DNA of 64,000 nt from positions 1 through 64,000 of the forward strand of contig JASJCP010000006.1 of the NCBI GenBank assembly GCA_030065935.1, written 5' to 3'. Below are positions 1,386 through 11,450 of the stretch, piece after piece. This stretch comes from Xenococcaceae cyanobacterium MO_167.B27 (GTDB lineage: Bacteria; Cyanobacteriota; Cyanobacteriia; Cyanobacteriales; Xenococcaceae). The notes beneath the pieces are model-generated. The model had not been told where the DNA came from. It saw only the letters and a list, made by a program, of their open reading frames with translations, and did no database searches. Positions within the stretch are counted from its first letter, which is position 1. Each line of letters begins with the position of its first letter. Made by a program: the position numbers and the translations under genes.

Positions 1386-1794
1386 GGGGGAGAGCCGAGA
1401 TCCGTGTAAATTAGTGCAAGATAGGACTCAATCCCTTGCCAGATAAAGCTTTGAGAATCAGTTACCCAAAAAGGTCAATATCTGACCTCTATTTCATTGC
1501 CTAAAATCTATCATTCTCGGCAATGTTTAAATCTCAGATTCACCATTTATCAATGCTTTTAGCTTTTTGGACTACACCTACTCAACGTTCCTTTTTGGCA
1601 ATGTTGTTGAAGTGCAAAATTCTCAAAACAAATTAACCAGGATATTTAGGGTAAAAGCTGAAGTCTGAAAAGCCTATTCTTTCGTTTATAGCGATAGCCT
1701 TTGGCTTAAAAATATTCCAATCGCGCTCCACCATTGCTGCATAAAGCGTCAACCCTCATCTTGCACTATTTTACACATATCTCGGCTCTGCCCC
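1386..1794. mobile_element. MITE-like element with 37-bp terminal inverted repeats
   Basis: The sequence at 1386-1422 is repeated in inverted orientation at 1758-1794 with 33 of 37 positions matching; both ends carry GAGCCGAGAT and TAGTGCAAGAT. The 335-bp interior has no open frame long enough for a transposase, so this is either a MITE or an internally deleted IS. It interrupts a minus-strand reading frame: the frame ending at 1771 reads directly into the right repeat, which supplies its last residues and stop codon. The family is unknown; an IS630-like origin is only a guess. Confidence 0.6.
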
Positions 1795-1941
1795 AATTTG
1801 TTTTACTGTTTCTACCGTATGAGTTTTTAACCAATAAATGGTTTGTATTCTTTCTTTTTCTTGAGGTGTAGAAGCATTTTGTAAAAGCTGTTTAAGAGTT
1901 TCTGCCGATTCGGTTATTTCAATTTTTACTACTCCTGACAT
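1771..1941 (-). pseudogene. IS630-type transposase N-terminal fragment, interrupted
   Basis: The frame from the ATG at 1941 gives 56 residues. MSGVVKIEITES, the stretch with LKQLL, and KERIQTIYWLKT resemble the start of the helix-turn-helix region of cyanobacterial IS630-family transposases, from recalled family pattern. The match stops after VKQIGA, where the inverted-repeat element at 1386-1794 begins; the last six residues come from that element. The rest of the helix-turn-helix and the whole DDE domain are missing. An upstream in-frame start at 1962 is possible but adds only low-complexity residues. Confidence 0.55.
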
Positions 1942-2040
1942 AGTTGGCGGTGCCGCAGGCAACAGCGAAAGCTGGTCGCTATAATTAACTACTTCTACAA
2001 GTGTAGCTGAAGTTAGTGAAATTGGTATGATTAAAAGAAT

Positions 2041-4098
2041 CTAGAGATTTTCTCTAAAAGATACATATTCGATAGTGACATCTTGTGTCTGGTACAAGAT
2101 TAAAGACTGACCAATAAGACTTTCTAGATTTAAACTTTTTAATTTAGCACCAGAGACATTTCTAAAACTGATTCCATCAACAGAGGACAACTCTGGAATT
2201 GCACTCTCAATGGAAAAACCTCTCAACTCGACATCTTCGACAGTAGTTAGCGGGAAGCTTGCTGATGGTTCTACTTGTAGTGTGGCTTCTCCTGCGAAGT
2301 GAGTTTGTAAAATCGTTCGTCGCCATCCTTTACCAGCAATAATTAGGTGGCTGCGGTGAATTTTGAGTGGTTGTAATAGATCGATTTCGCCGATGGGCAA
2401 ATTTATTTGCACTTTTTCATCTCCAGACAAACTATCGAGAAGTGTTTGTAGTTTAATGGAGTCATCTTGATCATCACTAGGGATAATGTCATAATCCTGA
2501 ACATTAATGATACGTACAGGAGGAGGAGCCAGCACTACCCGACTCATCCACCAACTATCGCTTAAATCTCGAACTGGATTGAGAGTGCCAGCCATCCACA
2601 ATAAAATAACCGTAAAACCAAATAGTTGAACGTAATAGAGAAAGCGAGAGATCCCATATTTGACTGTTCGTACCCAACCAGAACCAGCAGCAGAAATCGA
2701 CTGGTTGCCACGGTTGTACCATTTTTGCTGCGCCAAGTTCATTTGCGTCCAGATTTTTACCAAGCAGGAACTCCACTGCGCTAGTAAAAAAATTGGTAAG
2801 TGAATGGGTTTGAGAAGAGATTGTCGACCCGTAAAGATAATAGCGAGGATAATTGGACGGCTGAAAAGAATCCAAGCACTAATTAATCCTACCAATAGCC
2901 AGTTACCTTGCCCCAAACCAATTAGTAAAGAACCAGGAGTAATTAAAGTAGTCCAAAAACTAATACGCTGATCCACCAAACAATACCAGACGAACCAACC
3001 CGTTTTTTGAGGTCCTATAGCAATCGCACGATCGCTGTTGCGTAGCATATTACCGTACCAGCGACGCATATTTTGGTAAGCACGAGTCAGCAAATCACCA
3101 GAAATAGTCTCAATAGAGTAAACAATAACATCGGGGATGTAGAGCATCTGGTATCCTCGTTGCAGTAGCCAAAACCAGGTGCTTTTATCGTCTCCAGAAA
3201 GAAACTTAAACTTGCCCCACAGCCAGTCATCGAGAGTGTCGGTTTCCAACTGGTCAATAAAACTGGGTGCCAAAGCAATTTCGCTGCTAAATAGGGAAAA
3301 ACGTCCTGTTAAGCACAGTACTTTCTGAGACAGACCGACAGAACACATTTGGTAATGTCTTTGAGACAGTCGCAAATGGAACCACTCAGAAAATAAATAA
3401 GAACCTTCAACCCGAGGTAATTCATCCGTAGTTAAAGCTCCTATGTTAGGAAACAGACGAAAGAAAGGCAGACAACCTAGCAAACTACCAGCAGTTAACT
3501 CTGAGTCCCCATCCATTAGTGCTACTACTGAATCGGCTGGTGGGTTGTGTCGTGCTAGTTCCCGCAAGCCATCGGCCATAGCTTTGCGCTTTCCTTCCCC
3601 AGTTTGCACCATAAAAATTAAGCGAACGTGCTTTAGTTCTGGGTCTACAGAGCGGACTATCTCAAGAATTAGCTCGTTTTCGGCATCGCTACCACTAGTG
3701 ACTAGGATAGTAACCGGATGGGCTAAAGTTTTGGCTTCTTTAGCGATCGCCCGAAATACTCGTTCGGTAATCCAGTCTTTTTCTTTGTAGGTAGGAACTA
3801 AAAAGTAAACTGACGGTAAATCTTCTACAGGAATAGAATTAGCCCGACGTCGCCATCGAGGAAATACCCAATGTAAATAAATCCGCGAACGAATAACTTG
3901 TGTTATCCACCAAGACCAACGCCAAGTTCCCAAAAGCCCCAAGGCAAATAAACCAGATATATCCCAAAAATTTGGCTCTGAAAGATTTTGCAACAGGTTA
4001 TAGGTAAAAAAACCACCAGCAGAAATACCCAGAAGTATTGACCACCGACCAAACCAGGGCAAATTTTTCCCTAACAAGGTTTTTTTTAGCGAGTCCAT
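2041..4098 (-). CDS. Alg8-like processive family 2 glycosyltransferase with C-terminal beta-helix segment
   Basis: This 685-residue inner-membrane protein should polymerise a sugar nucleotide and feed the chain across the membrane. Two N-terminal membrane segments (about 18-36 and 46-68) precede a GT-A domain (93-350) with VPTYKE, the DGD metal-binding motif at 196-198, SGDDKSTWFW at 301-310 and QNMRRW at 342-347. Several membrane helices follow (about 368-445 and 488-505). The GDDKSTWFWLL stretch and the RWYGNMLRN to CLVDQR region are closer to Alg8, the alginate polymerase, than to BcsA as I recall these families. Residues 528-685 look like the first coils of a pectate-lyase-type right-handed beta-helix and stop abruptly, beside IS debris at 1386-1941, so the 3' end may be lost. 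It overlaps the upstream HlyD gene by 13 bp, suggesting translational coupling. Hyaluronan or cellulose synthase-like activity is the alternative. Confidence 0.75.
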   Translation of the reverse strand: MDSLKKTLLGKNLPWFGRWSILLGISAGGFFTYNLLQNLSEPNFWDISGLFALGLLGTWRWSWWITQVIRSRIYLHWVFPRWRRRANSIPVEDLPSVYFLVPTYKEKDWITERVFRAIAKEAKTLAHPVTILVTSGSDAENELILEIVRSVDPELKHVRLIFMVQTGEGKRKAMADGLRELARHNPPADSVVALMDGDSELTAGSLLGCLPFFRLFPNIGALTTDELPRVEGSYLFSEWFHLRLSQRHYQMCSVGLSQKVLCLTGRFSLFSSEIALAPSFIDQLETDTLDDWLWGKFKFLSGDDKSTWFWLLQRGYQMLYIPDVIVYSIETISGDLLTRAYQNMRRWYGNMLRNSDRAIAIGPQKTGWFVWYCLVDQRISFWTTLITPGSLLIGLGQGNWLLVGLISAWILFSRPIILAIIFTGRQSLLKPIHLPIFLLAQWSSCLVKIWTQMNLAQQKWYNRGNQSISAAGSGWVRTVKYGISRFLYYVQLFGFTVILLWMAGTLNPVRDLSDSWWMSRVVLAPPPVRIINVQDYDIIPSDDQDDSIKLQTLLDSLSGDEKVQINLPIGEIDLLQPLKIHRSHLIIAGKGWRRTILQTHFAGEATLQVEPSASFPLTTVEDVELRGFSIESAIPELSSVDGISFRNVSGAKLKSLNLESLIGQSLILYQTQDVTIEYVSFRENL

Positions 4099-5483
4099 GG
4101 TAATTTTTTCCTAAAAGTCAAGTGAGCTGATTGACCTACGCCACAAAATTGATGGGATTTGGTATATTCTGGCGATGGGGGAATTTTCACCGTTACCCTG
4201 GCTAGAGACTGATTGACTAACTGATGCGGAATGAAGGGAACTAAGGCTTGTACTTGGGAGAGCTTACTTAGTTCTTTGCCACCTTGAAAACCACTAATTG
4301 GCTGGATTAAATCAATCTGACCAGCAAGAGCCTGGGAATGCCCTACCAATTTGACTTCTACTACCTCTTCTGAAGCTATGAGGCTGGCTTGAGAAGCACT
4401 AACAATTACTTCTACCCACAAATCATTACAATCTAAAAGGGATAGAAGTGAAGCAGACTCCTCTATTTGTTCTCCTTGTTCTTGGATAGTCTGATAGATT
4501 ACCCCCGAAAACGGAGCTTTGATTTCTTGAACTTGGGAATGATTTAAGATATTTTCTATAGATTGGACTATATCAGAGCGTTTTTGAGAAGATACTTGAG
4601 TTTGATTGAGTTCCTTATGCAGTTGAAAAAGCTCTGCTTGTAGCGTTTTTATCTTTTCTCTTTGCTTTTGGCTCTCTCGCAGCAAGTTATTGTGTTGGTC
4701 ATTAAGACTGCCACCCATAATTTTGTTCCGATTGTTGCGTAAATAACCATCTTTAGAAGCATTTAAAGCCTTTTTGATGCCTGCTAGTAAGGATTTAGCT
4801 TGTTTTACTTCTGCCTCAGCAGCTTGCCAAGCGAGTTTTAATTGCTCTGTTTCTCCTTGGGAAACGGCACCTTGTATTAAGAGTCGGCGGTGATTTTCGT
4901 ATTGGACATAGCTGGCTTTGGCTTTGACCTCAGCTTCCTCAACTACTGCTTGCTGTTCGTGAATTTCTTCTAAGTTTAACTCTGCATCCAATCGGAGTAC
5001 TAGTTGATCTCGCTCATCTATCTCCTGAAGTTGACGCTCTAATGCCAAAAGATATTCCTTAGCAGCAGTCAGTTGAGTTTCGTGTATTTCTACATTTCCT
5101 TGTAAATGAGCTTGAGCAAGTTCGGAGTTGCTTTTTTTCTCTTGCAGTTTAAGTAGGGATTGCTTTTCTGCTACGGTAGGTTCTGTGTGAATGCGAGCTA
5201 GTACCTGTTGATATTTTACCCATACTCCGGGTTGAGCGTAAAAGGCTTGAATCAGTCCGAATACAGGTGCTTGTATTTTGGTAATGCGACCGTTTACCTG
5301 TCCATGCTCTACAACTAAGTTAGTCAATCGATATTTAATGGAGTTGATGCCAATGAAAGCAACACTCAAGCCGACTGACACAAATAAGATGCCTTTAAAT
5401 AAGCGCTGCCAAGAAGCTTGTTTTGAAATTTTTTTCGCAGATTGAACTACCATGTTACAACTTAAAAACTTTAATAAAAGCAA
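4086..5483 (-). CDS. HlyD/Alg44-like periplasmic adaptor protein
   Basis: The 465-residue protein has one N-terminal membrane anchor (about 28-48), a first half-lipoyl segment (GRITKIQAPVFGLIQ), a long alpha-helical hairpin rich in Q, E, K and L (about 100-320), a second half-lipoyl segment (IKAPFSGVIYQT) and a beta-barrel region. This is the membrane-fusion-protein layout of HlyD and of the periplasmic part of Alg44. No PilZ domain is present, so direct c-di-GMP control through this subunit, as in Alg44, is not expected. Its last codons overlap the glycosyltransferase start, so the pair probably works as one synthase and export complex. HlyD-like proteins are known partners of cyanobacterial polysaccharide synthases, which fits. 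A type I protein exporter role is less likely because no ABC transporter is nearby. Confidence 0.8.
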   Translation of the reverse strand: MLLLKFLSCNMVVQSAKKISKQASWQRLFKGILFVSVGLSVAFIGINSIKYRLTNLVVEHGQVNGRITKIQAPVFGLIQAFYAQPGVWVKYQQVLARIHTEPTVAEKQSLLKLQEKKSNSELAQAHLQGNVEIHETQLTAAKEYLLALERQLQEIDERDQLVLRLDAELNLEEIHEQQAVVEEAEVKAKASYVQYENHRRLLIQGAVSQGETEQLKLAWQAAEAEVKQAKSLLAGIKKALNASKDGYLRNNRNKIMGGSLNDQHNNLLRESQKQREKIKTLQAELFQLHKELNQTQVSSQKRSDIVQSIENILNHSQVQEIKAPFSGVIYQTIQEQGEQIEESASLLSLLDCNDLWVEVIVSASQASLIASEEVVEVKLVGHSQALAGQIDLIQPISGFQGGKELSKLSQVQALVPFIPHQLVNQSLARVTVKIPPSPEYTKSHQFCGVGQSAHLTFRKKLPWTR

Positions 5484-5604
5484 TCACTGGAATTACCTTT
5501 CAAATAGCACCGAAATGCTCAACAAAATCTTGTATTATTTTTATATTAAGTTATGTATTAATCTGATAATACCAAGATTCTGGCTGATTCTATAAAAAGA
5601 TACT

Positions 5605-5692
5605 GTATGGATTTTGTATGGATTTTGTATGGATTTTGTATGGATTTTGTATGGATTTTGTATGGATTTTGTATGGATTTTGTATGGATTCT
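5605..5692. repeat. 11-bp tandem repeat, eight copies
   Basis: Eight tandem copies of GTATGGATTTT lie between the lyase gene and the adaptor gene; the last has one change (ATTCT). The period is close to one helical turn, so the array would present the same face of DNA repeatedly. It sits about 120 bp upstream of the adaptor start, in its probable promoter region. The 5484-5843 gap otherwise holds the 5756-5776 hairpin and no gene; a frame read through the repeat on the minus strand is repetitive and not credible as protein. Confidence 0.9.
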
Positions 5693-5755
5693 GCGAAGGT
5701 TTTTTCTTTCCCCAAAATGTCTAGCGATTAAATAGCAATAATAAGGAGGACAAGA

Positions 5756-5776
5756 CACCTGGGGTCTCCCCAGGTG
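5756..5776. terminator. strong inverted repeat, possible terminator or attenuator
   Basis: A 9-bp perfect stem (CACCTGGGG / CCCCAGGTG) with a 3-nt loop lies 68 bp past the stop of the minus-strand lyase gene. The following minus-strand sequence is pyrimidine-rich but not a clean T run, so termination is plausible rather than certain. It could separate lyase expression from the adaptor-glycosyltransferase pair. Confidence 0.45.
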
Positions 5777-5843
5777 CTTTATATGTCCGTATAGATAATA
5801 GACAAGCGTTTTACAACGTTTTACTCTGCTTTGTTGCTTACTC

Positions 5844-6719
5844 TTAAGTCCCAATAGAAAACTCGGCAAAATCTATGTGGGTATCTTTTGGTGTAGCCCA
5901 AGACGAATTACCCCCTCCAAAAAAAGTGGAAAAGAAGATGCCGTCAATTTTGAGGGAATCGACGTAGCGAAAAGTTATTCCTCCTATATCTAGAACCTGC
6001 ACTCCATCCAACCAAACTTTAATCCGACCATTGGCTTTCCCTGGACTGTTGAGTTTAATTTCTTGTTCTAGATGATGCCAAATACCTGGTTGAAATCGCC
6101 AATTTCCTCTGCCAATAGAAGTCCCATAATCTTTGCTAGTGGGAAGATAGGCATAAACTTCCCCGTCTCCATTTCTTCTCCACATAAAACGAGTAGAAAA
6201 ACCATCCGTACCATCGGGAATATTGCCACCACTAGCACCATTGCCACCAAAAAGTCCTGGGAGTTTCCCCCCTTTGACGAAATCAAAGTCATCAGCAAAA
6301 CGAAGATAGTAGCTTAATCTCAAAGAGTCATGAGGAGATATCCCTAAATCAGCATAAAATTGGCTTCCCCCTAGAGGGGCATTATCTTTACGGGATACGC
6401 TAGGACTAGCAGACCCTTGAGGATAATTTATGCGCAGCACGCGCTCAAATCTGCCACTAGAATCTGTAATGATTTCCAGATTGGCTAAACCCCAACTCTT
6501 TTCTGGTTTAATTGCCCAGTTTTCCTGCCAATTAGCATTATCAAATTGGTCATACCAAAGCTGTTTAACAACAGGACTAGAATCAATTTTACCAACAATC
6601 GGAGGAGAGCTAGTAGGAGAAGAAATACCTGAGCTAGACTGACGACAACTATTTAAATGAAAAATGGAAATAGCTGTTAATATTAGGACTAAAAATGATT
6701 TAGTTGGTTGGGTTCTCAT
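5844..6719 (-). CDS. PL14-like polysaccharide (alginate/glucuronan) lyase lipoprotein
   Basis: The 291-residue product begins with a lipoprotein signal peptide (hydrophobic 9-23, then LNSC with the lipidated cysteine near 25) and a Ser/Pro linker. The rest is a jelly-roll-like domain: WYDQFDN, RVLRINYPQGS, a Gly-rich KLPGLFGG segment, FSTRFMWRRNGDGEVYAYLP and a closing TFFGGGNSSWATP motif. That series resembles the polysaccharide lyase 14 fold, which includes alginate and glucuronan lyases; the call is from remembered motifs. It is probably outer-membrane or periplasmic and could trim or release the polymer made by the neighbouring synthase, much as AlgL does. It is the first gene of the minus-strand trio, 360 bp before the adaptor. 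A substrate-binding or structural role cannot be excluded. Confidence 0.65.
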   Translation of the reverse strand: MRTQPTKSFLVLILTAISIFHLNSCRQSSSGISSPTSSPPIVGKIDSSPVVKQLWYDQFDNANWQENWAIKPEKSWGLANLEIITDSSGRFERVLRINYPQGSASPSVSRKDNAPLGGSQFYADLGISPHDSLRLSYYLRFADDFDFVKGGKLPGLFGGNGASGGNIPDGTDGFSTRFMWRRNGDGEVYAYLPTSKDYGTSIGRGNWRFQPGIWHHLEQEIKLNSPGKANGRIKVWLDGVQVLDIGGITFRYVDSLKIDGIFFSTFFGGGNSSWATPKDTHIDFAEFSIGT

Positions 6720-8272: not shown

Positions 8273-9529
8273 CTAGCTACAACCTTGATCAGAGCTTGAG
8301 CCATCAGGCATAGTTGCACCACAGAGATTTAAATCTTCTAAATCCACATCAATCAGATTAGCATCAATCAGATTAGCATCAATCAGATTAGCATCATCTA
8401 AATCCGCATTAGTCAGGTTACTGTTGACTAAAGTAGCTTCTTTTAAGATAGTAAAGAGTTTATAACTATGTTCTGCTCCAATGATTTGAATAGAGCCAAA
8501 TTTTGTTTTCTCTAAGTTGGCATTACTCAAATTGGCTTTTTCTAGGTTAGCTCCATTCAATTGCGCTTTGCTGAGGTCAGTATCACTAAGATTAGCATTT
8601 TGGAGATTGGTACGAATGAAAGATTTGGTCCTTAAGTCTACATTTCGCAAAATCGCCTTTGCTAAATTAGCTCTTCGCAAATTAGCTCCTCGCAAATTAG
8701 CTCCCTCTAGATTTGCTCCCTCTAAATTGGCGTTTTCTAAATTAGCTCCTATGAGATTAGCATCTTGAAGATCGGCTTTTTGCAAATCAACTCCTCTCAA
8801 GTCACATCCTATACATTCATTAGTTTCTAATAGTTGAGCCAGAAGTTTCGATTTGAGTTTTTTGCTTCTTGTTGTTTCTGGGTGAATCAAGGTCCTAGGA
8901 TCTTGACCAATTAATTCCTCTAATCTCTCTCTTAAAGCAACTTCTTTTTCTGTTTCAATAAAAATTGTTGTGTAGGTTAGTATTCCTGTATCTAAACCTG
9001 AACCAGTTTTAAAACCAATGATTATTTCGGAAATTTCCCCTGGATTAGAAGTAATTGCATTAAGTGCTGCGACCCCTACTATGGCAGTAGGAAGTGGCAG
9101 TAATATTCTCATTGGGGCTCTATTTCTTTCAGATTGAAGCACATTTACCAGAGCCACATCCTCGACTGGAATGATAACTTCACGGGTTGTGAGCTGTTCA
9201 TCTAAAATCTCTAGAGGTTCTCCTTGTTCCAGATAAAGAGCTAGTCCATTTTCTGTAGCATTTACTTTGCATCTGCTGAATTGATTAGTGTTAACAGAGA
9301 TCAAAGAACATCTTGCCTCTTCCCCTGGTCTGTCTTGAAGAGCTACGGGTTGTTCAACATCAAATCCTTTACAAAGAGAATTATAGGGAAATTTAGAGCA
9401 TAGGCTGTAAAGATCTATTTCTCGTCCTTTTCCTACTGTTACAATTGTTTCACCTGTAGCAATGGAACCAGAGCAAAACAATGCAGAAATTGTCAAACTT
9501 ATCCAAACGCGAGAAAAGTTAATCTTCAT
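8273..9529 (-). CDS. secreted pentapeptide-repeat protein
   Basis: The 418-residue protein starts with a signal peptide (about 1-27, hydrophobic core SLTISALFCSGSIATG). Residues 28-235 form a mixed region with several cysteines that I do not recognise. From about 240 to 410 runs a pentapeptide-repeat domain of A(D/N)LXX units, interrupted near 345-370, ending in a cysteine-containing tail. Such repeats fold as a right-handed quadrilateral beta-helix; in cyanobacteria they are common in periplasmic, lumenal and cytosolic proteins of mostly unknown role. The repeat DNA includes near-identical 15-bp units (about 8350-8400), so length may vary between strains. It stands alone in an accessory region. 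A start at the ATG 9529 gives a good signal peptide. Confidence 0.8.
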   Translation of the reverse strand: MKINFSRVWISLTISALFCSGSIATGETIVTVGKGREIDLYSLCSKFPYNSLCKGFDVEQPVALQDRPGEEARCSLISVNTNQFSRCKVNATENGLALYLEQGEPLEILDEQLTTREVIIPVEDVALVNVLQSERNRAPMRILLPLPTAIVGVAALNAITSNPGEISEIIIGFKTGSGLDTGILTYTTIFIETEKEVALRERLEELIGQDPRTLIHPETTRSKKLKSKLLAQLLETNECIGCDLRGVDLQKADLQDANLIGANLENANLEGANLEGANLRGANLRRANLAKAILRNVDLRTKSFIRTNLQNANLSDTDLSKAQLNGANLEKANLSNANLEKTKFGSIQIIGAEHSYKLFTILKEATLVNSNLTNADLDDANLIDANLIDANLIDVDLEDLNLCGATMPDGSSSDQGCS

Positions 9530-9854: not shown

Positions 9855-11450
9855 CTACTTAAAACCTAAACAAAGTTGCACATAAGTAGCACTATGTTTA
9901 GGGTTGGGACTCGGTGATTTCCCTTTTTTACGATTTGATTGGCTACTCGCAGGAGAGAGGGTAGAACCCGTCTCATTACTATCACTAATAACAAGAAATT
10001 TCCCTAGGGTTTTCGTCCAATCAAAAAGTTGTGAACGTCTAATTTTGTTAGATTTAAGGAATCGTGCGATACGATTCCAACTCGTCCAAGGATGCCTAGC
10101 TTGATCCTCTGGTCTGACTAGGCATTTGGGGGCGCGTTCGCTCATACCCATTGCCCGACGAGCAATAGTCATGGCTGCTGCCGTCCCCGAATTTAAGCCA
10201 TATCTAGGCATAAATTTAATCATACCAACGACACTGGTAAAAGCTGGATTAATAAAGTGCAAGCCTATTCCAAAACGCTTACATCTTGAGATTAATGCTT
10301 CTCTAAACATAGCTGTAGAGAGATTAGAGAGCATTGTGTTATAAACCTTTGAGGCTTCAGACTGTGATGCTTTTTTCTGGGAAAAATCAAGAGATTCAAT
10401 AGCAATGGGACATTGATAATCCATAGCCATGTCGGTTAGCTTAACTACCAAGTTACGCATCATTGCTTGTCGCTGCCTTTGACTAAAGCCTTTCCAAAAA
10501 AAAGATAATTTTCCTTTTTTCTTGATATTCCCATCGGCTAAGACGTAAGCCCATTCAACACTATCTCGATTAAAATCCACTCCAATACAGCCATTATCAA
10601 ATGAAGTTGTCACTGGAATCTCTTGAACATAAGTGGTTAGATGGATATACCACTGGTCTTTTTTATGTTCTCTGCGAAAAACTTGTACTGTAATTGGCTT
10701 CTGTTGTTGTAGCGCATAGAGCAAAGATGATTTTCTGCGACGACGACATTCTGTTACTTGAAACGGAATTTCCAGGAATTTGCCGTATTGAGAACTCATA
10801 AAGCGAGGTAGAGTTACTATTGCTTTAAAATCGTCTCCTGCTACATGAAAGATTTTAATCATCGTGCCTCCCCCTGATGTGGATTTTCCCACGCAATAAA
10901 ATCTTCCTCCTCGTTTCTTTCTCCAGTCAACTAACCATTCTTCATGGTTAGCATATCCGTTTTCTTCTAGATGATACTGAGCATTAAATAACTTTTTTGA
11001 GCCAAAACAAATATGTAATCTATCTGTTGACTGTAATTGTTTTAAATCATCTTTCAATGACTTAATTTTGATTACTTTTGATTTTAATCCTAATGCCTGA
11101 TTTTGTTGCTTAATTGATGGGGTTTTTACTTTGGATAAGCTCTTAAATAGATTCTTGGCAGATGCAGTTTTTTTGTTAATTTGTTCTTTAATTCGAGCAA
11201 TATTCAGTTTTTTGGCGGTAGTTAATTGGGAGTAAGTTTGCTTAACCTCAGTAGCGATAGAATCAGCCCATGCCCATTGAAGATTAAAGCGAGCCTGGTA
11301 AGATTTTTCAATCTGGTTTTCACTCATGCCTCGTTCCATATCATTCAAGCCAGTGCGACGGATAGATTCGTACTTATCTCCCAAAACATTAAAAATGGGA
11401 TTGTACTCAATTTTGGCTTCAATTCCGACTCGCAGTCCTTTGCAATACAT
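9855..11450 (-). CDS. tnpB: TnpB-family (IS200/IS605/IS607 OrfB) protein, probably lacking the zinc ribbon
   Basis: The 531-residue product has a basic helical N-terminal part and a RuvC-like C-terminal half. RuvC I is seen as GVDFNRD (Asp292) and RuvC II as IAIESLDF (Glu352). Where most TnpB proteins have a CxxC...CxxC zinc ribbon between RuvC II and III I see none, and the RuvC III position reads YGLNSGTAAAMTIARR (417-432) without the usual Asp. This matches a divergent TnpB-related group common in cyanobacteria, as I recall. TnpB proteins are normally RNA-guided nucleases that keep the element in place; with a missing third acidic residue this copy may be catalytically weak or act only as a binder. 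It sits directly downstream of a broken tnpA, so the element is probably not mobile by itself. Confidence 0.75.
   Translation of the reverse strand: MYCKGLRVGIEAKIEYNPIFNVLGDKYESIRRTGLNDMERGMSENQIEKSYQARFNLQWAWADSIATEVKQTYSQLTTAKKLNIARIKEQINKKTASAKNLFKSLSKVKTPSIKQQNQALGLKSKVIKIKSLKDDLKQLQSTDRLHICFGSKKLFNAQYHLEENGYANHEEWLVDWRKKRGGRFYCVGKSTSGGGTMIKIFHVAGDDFKAIVTLPRFMSSQYGKFLEIPFQVTECRRRRKSSLLYALQQQKPITVQVFRREHKKDQWYIHLTTYVQEIPVTTSFDNGCIGVDFNRDSVEWAYVLADGNIKKKGKLSFFWKGFSQRQRQAMMRNLVVKLTDMAMDYQCPIAIESLDFSQKKASQSEASKVYNTMLSNLSTAMFREALISRCKRFGIGLHFINPAFTSVVGMIKFMPRYGLNSGTAAAMTIARRAMGMSERAPKCLVRPEDQARHPWTSWNRIARFLKSNKIRRSQLFDWTKTLGKFLVISDSNETGSTLSPASSQSNRKKGKSPSPNPKHSATYVQLCLGFK

Follow-up and report, generated by a model that had tools for sequence, protein, structure and literature searches.

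A compact alginate-type synthase, adaptor and lyase locus in a Xenococcaceae cyanobacterium, with a glucuronan-like polymer as its likely product

Gene content and conservation of the locus

The window, i.e., the entire 64,000-nucleotide stretch of Xenococcaceae cyanobacterium MO_167.B27 that was analysed, begins at one end of contig C252 and carries three adjacent genes on the minus strand. Their products were assigned by Pfam to glycosyltransferase (GT) family GT2 (PF13641, E 5e-30), the HlyD adaptors (HlyD_3/HlyD_D23, E about 1e-12) and polysaccharide lyase family 14 (PF21294 Polysacc_lyase_14, E 1e-64), in agreement with a preliminary description of the same DNA that had placed a polymerase, an adaptor and a lyase here. 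The features are as follows.

2041..4098, minus strand: GT2 synthase of the Alg8 family, 685 aa (open reading frame list and Pfam)
2041..2529, minus strand: C-terminal right-handed parallel beta-helix domain of the synthase (residues about 524-685), with a PF12708-type cap
4086..5483, minus strand: HlyD-family periplasmic adaptor, 465 aa, with one N-terminal transmembrane segment (Pfam)
5604..5690, no strand: 11-bp tandem repeat TGTATGGATTT without mismatches, 7.9 copies, in the interval that separates PL14 and HlyD
5844..6719, minus strand: PL14 polyuronate lyase, 291 aa, predicted lipoprotein with Cys25 (Pfam)

The GT and HlyD genes overlap by 13 bp, and the PL14 gene lies 360 bp upstream of the HlyD gene, whose listed start is a TTG codon with an in-frame ATG 10 codons inside. 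No clear gene was recognised in the region surrounding the TGTATGGATTT repeat. That the synthase had been cut short, either by the close-lying end of the contig or through a mobile element, was considered and rejected, given that complete relatives measure about 646-745 aa and the window protein 685 aa. In the vicinity, the open frame that immediately follows the stop codon of the synthase (1771-2040, minus strand) resembles by eye, in its C-terminal part, a fragment of an IS630-type transposase, and a 531-aa open reading frame (9855-11450, minus strand), for which Pfam gave no more than a weak DUF3155 match, appears by eye to be of the TnpB type found in IS200/IS605 elements. A pentapeptide-repeat protein is encoded at 8273-9529 (minus strand) by DNA containing 15-bp tandem repeats.

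Scanning of GTDB species genomes yielded 18 related cyanobacterial synthase loci; a 19th (L020), a contig-edge fragment sharing 91% identity with a portion of the beta-helix of the window, stands outside this set. HlyD and PL14 genes adjoin the synthase gene in every one of the 18 loci with enough flanking DNA, the PL14 gene having the opposite orientation in some of them. In an even sample of 386 genomes from the cyanobacterial phylum, the synthase was detected in 6 and PL14 in 8, and all 6 synthase genomes were also PL14-positive (hypergeometric P about 6e-12). The trio is patchily distributed but tightly linked in cyanobacteria and represents a conserved module rather than a chance neighbourhood; its recurrence in other cyanobacteria, which the preliminary description had singled out for checking, is hence documented.

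Synthase, adaptor and lyase in relation to alginate proteins

The synthase comprises two N-terminal transmembrane segments, a GT2 domain (about residues 95-350) with the motifs DGD (196-198), GDD (302-304) and MRRW (344-347), three C-terminal transmembrane segments and finally the beta-helix. Its best matches in a plasmid collection were all alphaproteobacterial (34-40% identity, about 60-67% of the query), followed only by two NodC proteins with about 22% identity. In four of the matched loci, the annotation lists a nucleotide sugar dehydrogenase, a GT, a hypothetical protein at the place of Alg44, a sugar phosphate nucleotidyltransferase and a beta-helix protein. An MBOAT protein is present in two of the four as well, and one of these two contains AlgF. 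Domain scans of one matched locus revealed AlgX domains and an AlgA-type enzyme, and the dehydrogenases of this locus and of a Rhizobium locus had their best match, by a wide margin, in the GDP-mannose dehydrogenase (GMD) of Pseudomonas aeruginosa. Six such alphaproteobacterial proteins, which are called Alg8 on the basis of locus content and do not include the characterised P. aeruginosa enzyme, were combined into an Alg8 profile.

This profile matched the window GT with 388 bits, as the sole match among the 20 top-ranking GT2 matches of the genome, and the part aligned with Alg8 proteins extends from about residue 48 to 508 (about 460 residues). The reverse profile recovered the Alg8 proteins with 334-384 bits and none of the genome's cellulose-synthase-like proteins. 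Since the reciprocal profiles pair the window GT with Alg8 proteins, the synthase is, as judged by sequence, an Alg8 homologue, and the Alg8-like polymerase proposed in the preliminary description stands; cellulose and hyaluronan synthases, a clearly closer fit to which had been named as the observation that would speak against it, did not prove to be such a fit by sequence. A search of solved structures with the GT sequence alone returned nothing at E <= 1, and a profile search gave weak partial matches. An attempt to root the synthase tree with the genome's XcsA-like protein and the C75 GT2 protein as the outgroup was abandoned on account of excessively long branches.

For the C-terminal domain, a beta-helix resembling AlgG-type epimerases had been suggested, of which the fold is correct and the AlgG relationship is not. 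Folded alone, the domain forms a right-handed parallel beta-helix (pLDDT 93, pTM 0.89), and PF12708 is matched in 12 of the 18 members. Among its structural neighbours are inulin lyases, phage tailspikes, RbmB and the modules of the AlgE4/AlgE6 epimerases, with no class standing out. A profile comparison with AlgG gave a probability of 0.5%, and an AlgG origin was rejected. Membership in the AlgG/AlgE C5-epimerases agrees with the fold and lacks the conserved catalytic residues: conservation is confined to the N-terminal cap, no column past domain residue 72 is conserved in 90% of the relatives, and later helix turns are missing in three of them. The domain, a short PF12708-type beta-helix, also occurs on the synthases of those relatives that carry an AlgD gene in the operon (see below). 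Hydropathy and positive-inside charge (two transmembrane segments ahead of the GT domain, three behind it) would place it in the periplasm. Its most likely function is binding or docking.

The adaptor was correctly anticipated to be HlyD/Alg44-like and devoid of PilZ: HlyD families were matched in 18 of the 18 adaptors and PilZ in none, and the window protein has a single N-terminal transmembrane segment and neither a PilZ nor an EAL domain. Alg44 carries a PilZ domain at its N-terminus. The complete Alg44 architecture of cytosolic PilZ, transmembrane segment and barrel-sandwich is therefore not found, and a profile comparison with Alg44 (probability 73.5%) covers only 75 columns around the transmembrane segment and the barrel. 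Three relatives encode EAL-HlyD fusion adaptors beside the synthase, with the EAL domain at the N-terminus (L003, 7658-9784; L105, 8067-10256; L106, 5780-7900). The first Glu of the EAL motif is kept in these fusions (EVLLRW), and the Glu of EGVE is, by eye, apparently replaced; because the latter residue appears absent, a role of the EAL domain in binding rather than cleaving c-di-GMP is plausible. The fusions suggest that the adaptor of these relatives bears a c-di-GMP-type receptor in the way that Alg44 bears PilZ, with a different domain in this role.

The lyase, announced as a PL14-like lipoprotein, conforms to this assignment, with a lipoprotein-like signal at its N-terminus. It aligns with the solved PL14 relatives 5gmt and 3a0n, including the residues K152, S175, R177, Y189 and Y191, which are invariant in 16 of 16 relatives and which we take to be the PL14 catalytic set. 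The solved relatives are alginate lyases, and the PL14 member vAL-1 has been classed as a glucuronan lyase (EC 4.2.2.14; PMC8618178). For lyases and hydrolases in such operons, clearance of the periplasm has been proposed, and it has been shown for AlgL (PMC8829089); by analogy, a comparable clearing function is likely for the PL14 lyase. A literature search found no paper linking a cyanobacterial PL14 protein to exopolysaccharide synthesis. Two further PL14 genes were observed in genomes in which the search found no Alg8-type synthase, namely one in G023 (L109, 8208-9104) and a GH9-PL14 fusion in G082, a member of the window's family (L093, 1-2094).

AlgD and the donor sugar

Alginate synthesis needs GDP-mannuronate, which is made by AlgD. 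In the window genome, no AlgD match was obtained at E <= 1e-70, and the same search recovered AlgD in the two related genomes G080 and G380. The only strong match to this dehydrogenase family is a UDP-glucose dehydrogenase (UGDH; 401 bits versus 205 bits for GMD). Among the relatives, AlgD was likewise not detected in a set of 12 genomes, in G074 and G130 or in six others, which include partial genomes. The AlgD-less trio genomes thus total 21 (the window genome and 20 relatives), several of them near complete, and nearly all contain a UGDH-type enzyme. UGDH is common in bacteria, and for this reason its presence is weak evidence on the donor. Three dehydrogenases considered as a hidden AlgD (L050, L065 and L066) were rejected, as they matched AlgD no better than UGDH or were weak to both.

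The situation differs in G080 and G380, where AlgD lies between the HlyD and synthase genes and has its best match in the P. aeruginosa GMD. The two in-operon proteins are 56% identical to each other, and the G080 dehydrogenase reached 343 bits with AlgD versus 209 bits with UGDH in BLAST comparisons and 397 bits with GMD in the PDB. The synthase gene of G080 is followed by a gene for a beta-helix protein that contains a PPC domain and by a PL7-type alginate lyase gene (L104, 13381-16330). The AlgD-plus pair probably makes a mannuronate polymer. As observations apart from this, a group II intron-type reverse transcriptase is encoded near the AlgD-plus locus of G380 (L105, 2074-3396), and AlgD-like dehydrogenases with 39-42% identity (L112, L113 and L114) occur in genomes of the cyanobacterial phylum that gave no Alg8-type synthase match.

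The split by AlgD is mirrored in the synthase tree, in which the AlgD-plus synthases form a clade (support 97/89) that includes one long branch and is sister to the AlgD-less synthases, the separation of the two clades being supported with only 82/68. Eight alignment columns are fixed in all 20 AlgD-less synthases and different in both AlgD-plus proteins, compared with a mean of 0.15 and a maximum of 5 for control pairs. Position 135, for example, is Ser in the AlgD-less synthases and hydrophobic in the AlgD-plus synthases and the Alg8 proteins. This pattern looks like a donor switch, and some of the columns may be neutral. The PTYxE motif, located at the nucleotide site, was discarded as a mark of a UDP-linked donor, since its P and E are shared by the AlgD-plus synthases.

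UDP-glucuronate is most likely the donor in the window genome and in its AlgD-less relatives, since searches of the genome recovered a biosynthetic enzyme for no other nucleotide uronate and since glucuronan is among the polyuronates accepted by PL14. The alginate-like identity of the polymer put forward in the preliminary description is not supported for the window genome, in which AlgD was not found; its product is probably something other than alginate. A true alginate (poly-mannuronate) would presuppose that GDP-mannuronate stems from an unrecognised enzyme or from a dehydrogenase missing from the assembly. The homology of the synthase to Alg8, the alginate lyases among the solved PL14 relatives and the in-operon AlgD of two close relatives, one of them also with the PL7 lyase, are in line with this reading. 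It is nonetheless unlikely, as searches that detect AlgD in two positive genomes did not find it in any of the 21 trio genomes. Moreover, the window genome gave no matches to AlgG or AlgX, in searches that lacked a positive control, and none to an AlgE-type porin, in a search that was positive in one control genome.

Proposed polymer and its significance

With an estimated probability of about 0.55, we interpret the locus as a compact alginate-type system for synthase-dependent exopolysaccharide production that belongs to an AlgD-less branch and makes a glucuronan-like product. The Alg8-family GT2 would polymerise an activated uronic acid at the cytoplasmic face and thread the chain through its own membrane domain, at whose periplasmic exit the fused beta-helix would serve as a probably non-catalytic module that binds the chain or the adaptor. 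The chain would then cross the periplasm via HlyD, probably to a TolC-type outer membrane channel encoded elsewhere, and the PL14 lipoprotein would trim or clear stray polymer in an AlgL-like manner. In the AlgD-less branch, UDP-glucuronate would yield a glucuronan-like beta-polyuronate, and in the sister branch with the in-operon AlgD, the donor would be GDP-mannuronate.

The same machinery might instead produce a mixed or modified polymer, e.g., one that combines glucuronate with an amino sugar or a neutral sugar, or one with a hyaluronan-like alternation. The nearest solved folds of the GT model are hyaluronan synthases (Z 17-19), which use UDP-GlcA and two alternating donors, and the class 2 enzyme of a Chlorella virus, as the nearest solved fold, shares Y and E of the PTYxE motif at its Tyr91/Glu93 positions. 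However, no Alg8 structure was evident among the listed fold matches, so that the ranking is not specific, and the viral enzyme is only about 15% identical to the window GT and has neither a beta-helix nor a HlyD partner. Together with strong Alg8 matches and sequence searches that returned no hyaluronan synthase match to the window GT, this makes a mixed polymer improbable. A neutral glucan from another XcsABC-type system (GT2, HlyD, endoglucanase), with a PL14 unrelated to the product, would have the identical three-part plan of synthase, HlyD and degrading enzyme (PMC12430437), but it is very improbable, as PL14 tracks the GT in six of six genomes and lies near it in nearly all loci, and as the BcsA/XcsA-like proteins of the genome are very distant, the XcsA-like protein being separated from the window GT by >4 changes per column and recovered by neither profile, which places the window synthase outside the BcsA/XcsA-type GT2 proteins.

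The alginate-type, glucuronan-like reading can be set against three known systems. The locus resembles alginate loci in its Alg8-family synthase with conserved motifs and C-terminal transmembrane layout, its inner-membrane adaptor with a barrel-sandwich domain, its periplasmic-type polyuronate lyase and the AlgD of two relatives. In contrast to them, it lacks AlgD, AlgA, AlgG, AlgI/J/X, AlgK and AlgE, its lyase is PL14 rather than AlgL-type, the adaptor is a full HlyD protein without PilZ, and the beta-helix is fused to the synthase. The compact mirror of Alg8, Alg44, AlgG and AlgL that had been proposed is accordingly accurate for synthase, adaptor and lyase and fails for AlgG and for alginate itself. 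The cyanobacterial tripartite cellulose system XcsA-XcsB-XcsC (Maeda et al. 2018, reviewed in PMC12430437) also clusters a synthase, a HlyD protein and a polymer-degrading enzyme, and a TolC exit has been proposed for it, whereas the window synthase is Alg8-type rather than BcsA-type and without PilZ, and the degrading enzyme is a uronate lyase and not an endoglucanase. The glucuronan producers Sinorhizobium meliloti M5N1CS and Peteryoungia rosettiformans are comparable by product alone, with the predicted beta-1,4-linked polyglucuronate and a lyase that accompanies synthesis; a 2023 paper states that the glucuronan biosynthesis genes remain unknown (PMC10180729).

The findings add cyanobacteria to the groups with Alg8-type polyuronate synthesis, here in a strongly reduced format. 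Alginate has been reported from a Synechocystis isolate, without an apparent link to cyanobacterial genes (PMC10629183). Two sister branches that differ by AlgD alone offer a naturally occurring test of how a processive synthase chooses its donor. Of the two, the AlgD-less branch provides a concrete and directly testable candidate for the missing glucuronan biosynthesis genes. Tentatively, its members might be glucuronan synthases that arose by a donor switch from an alginate-type synthase, working as a minimal machine of synthase, adaptor and lyase, and the locus might then be the first one for beta-glucuronan synthesis.
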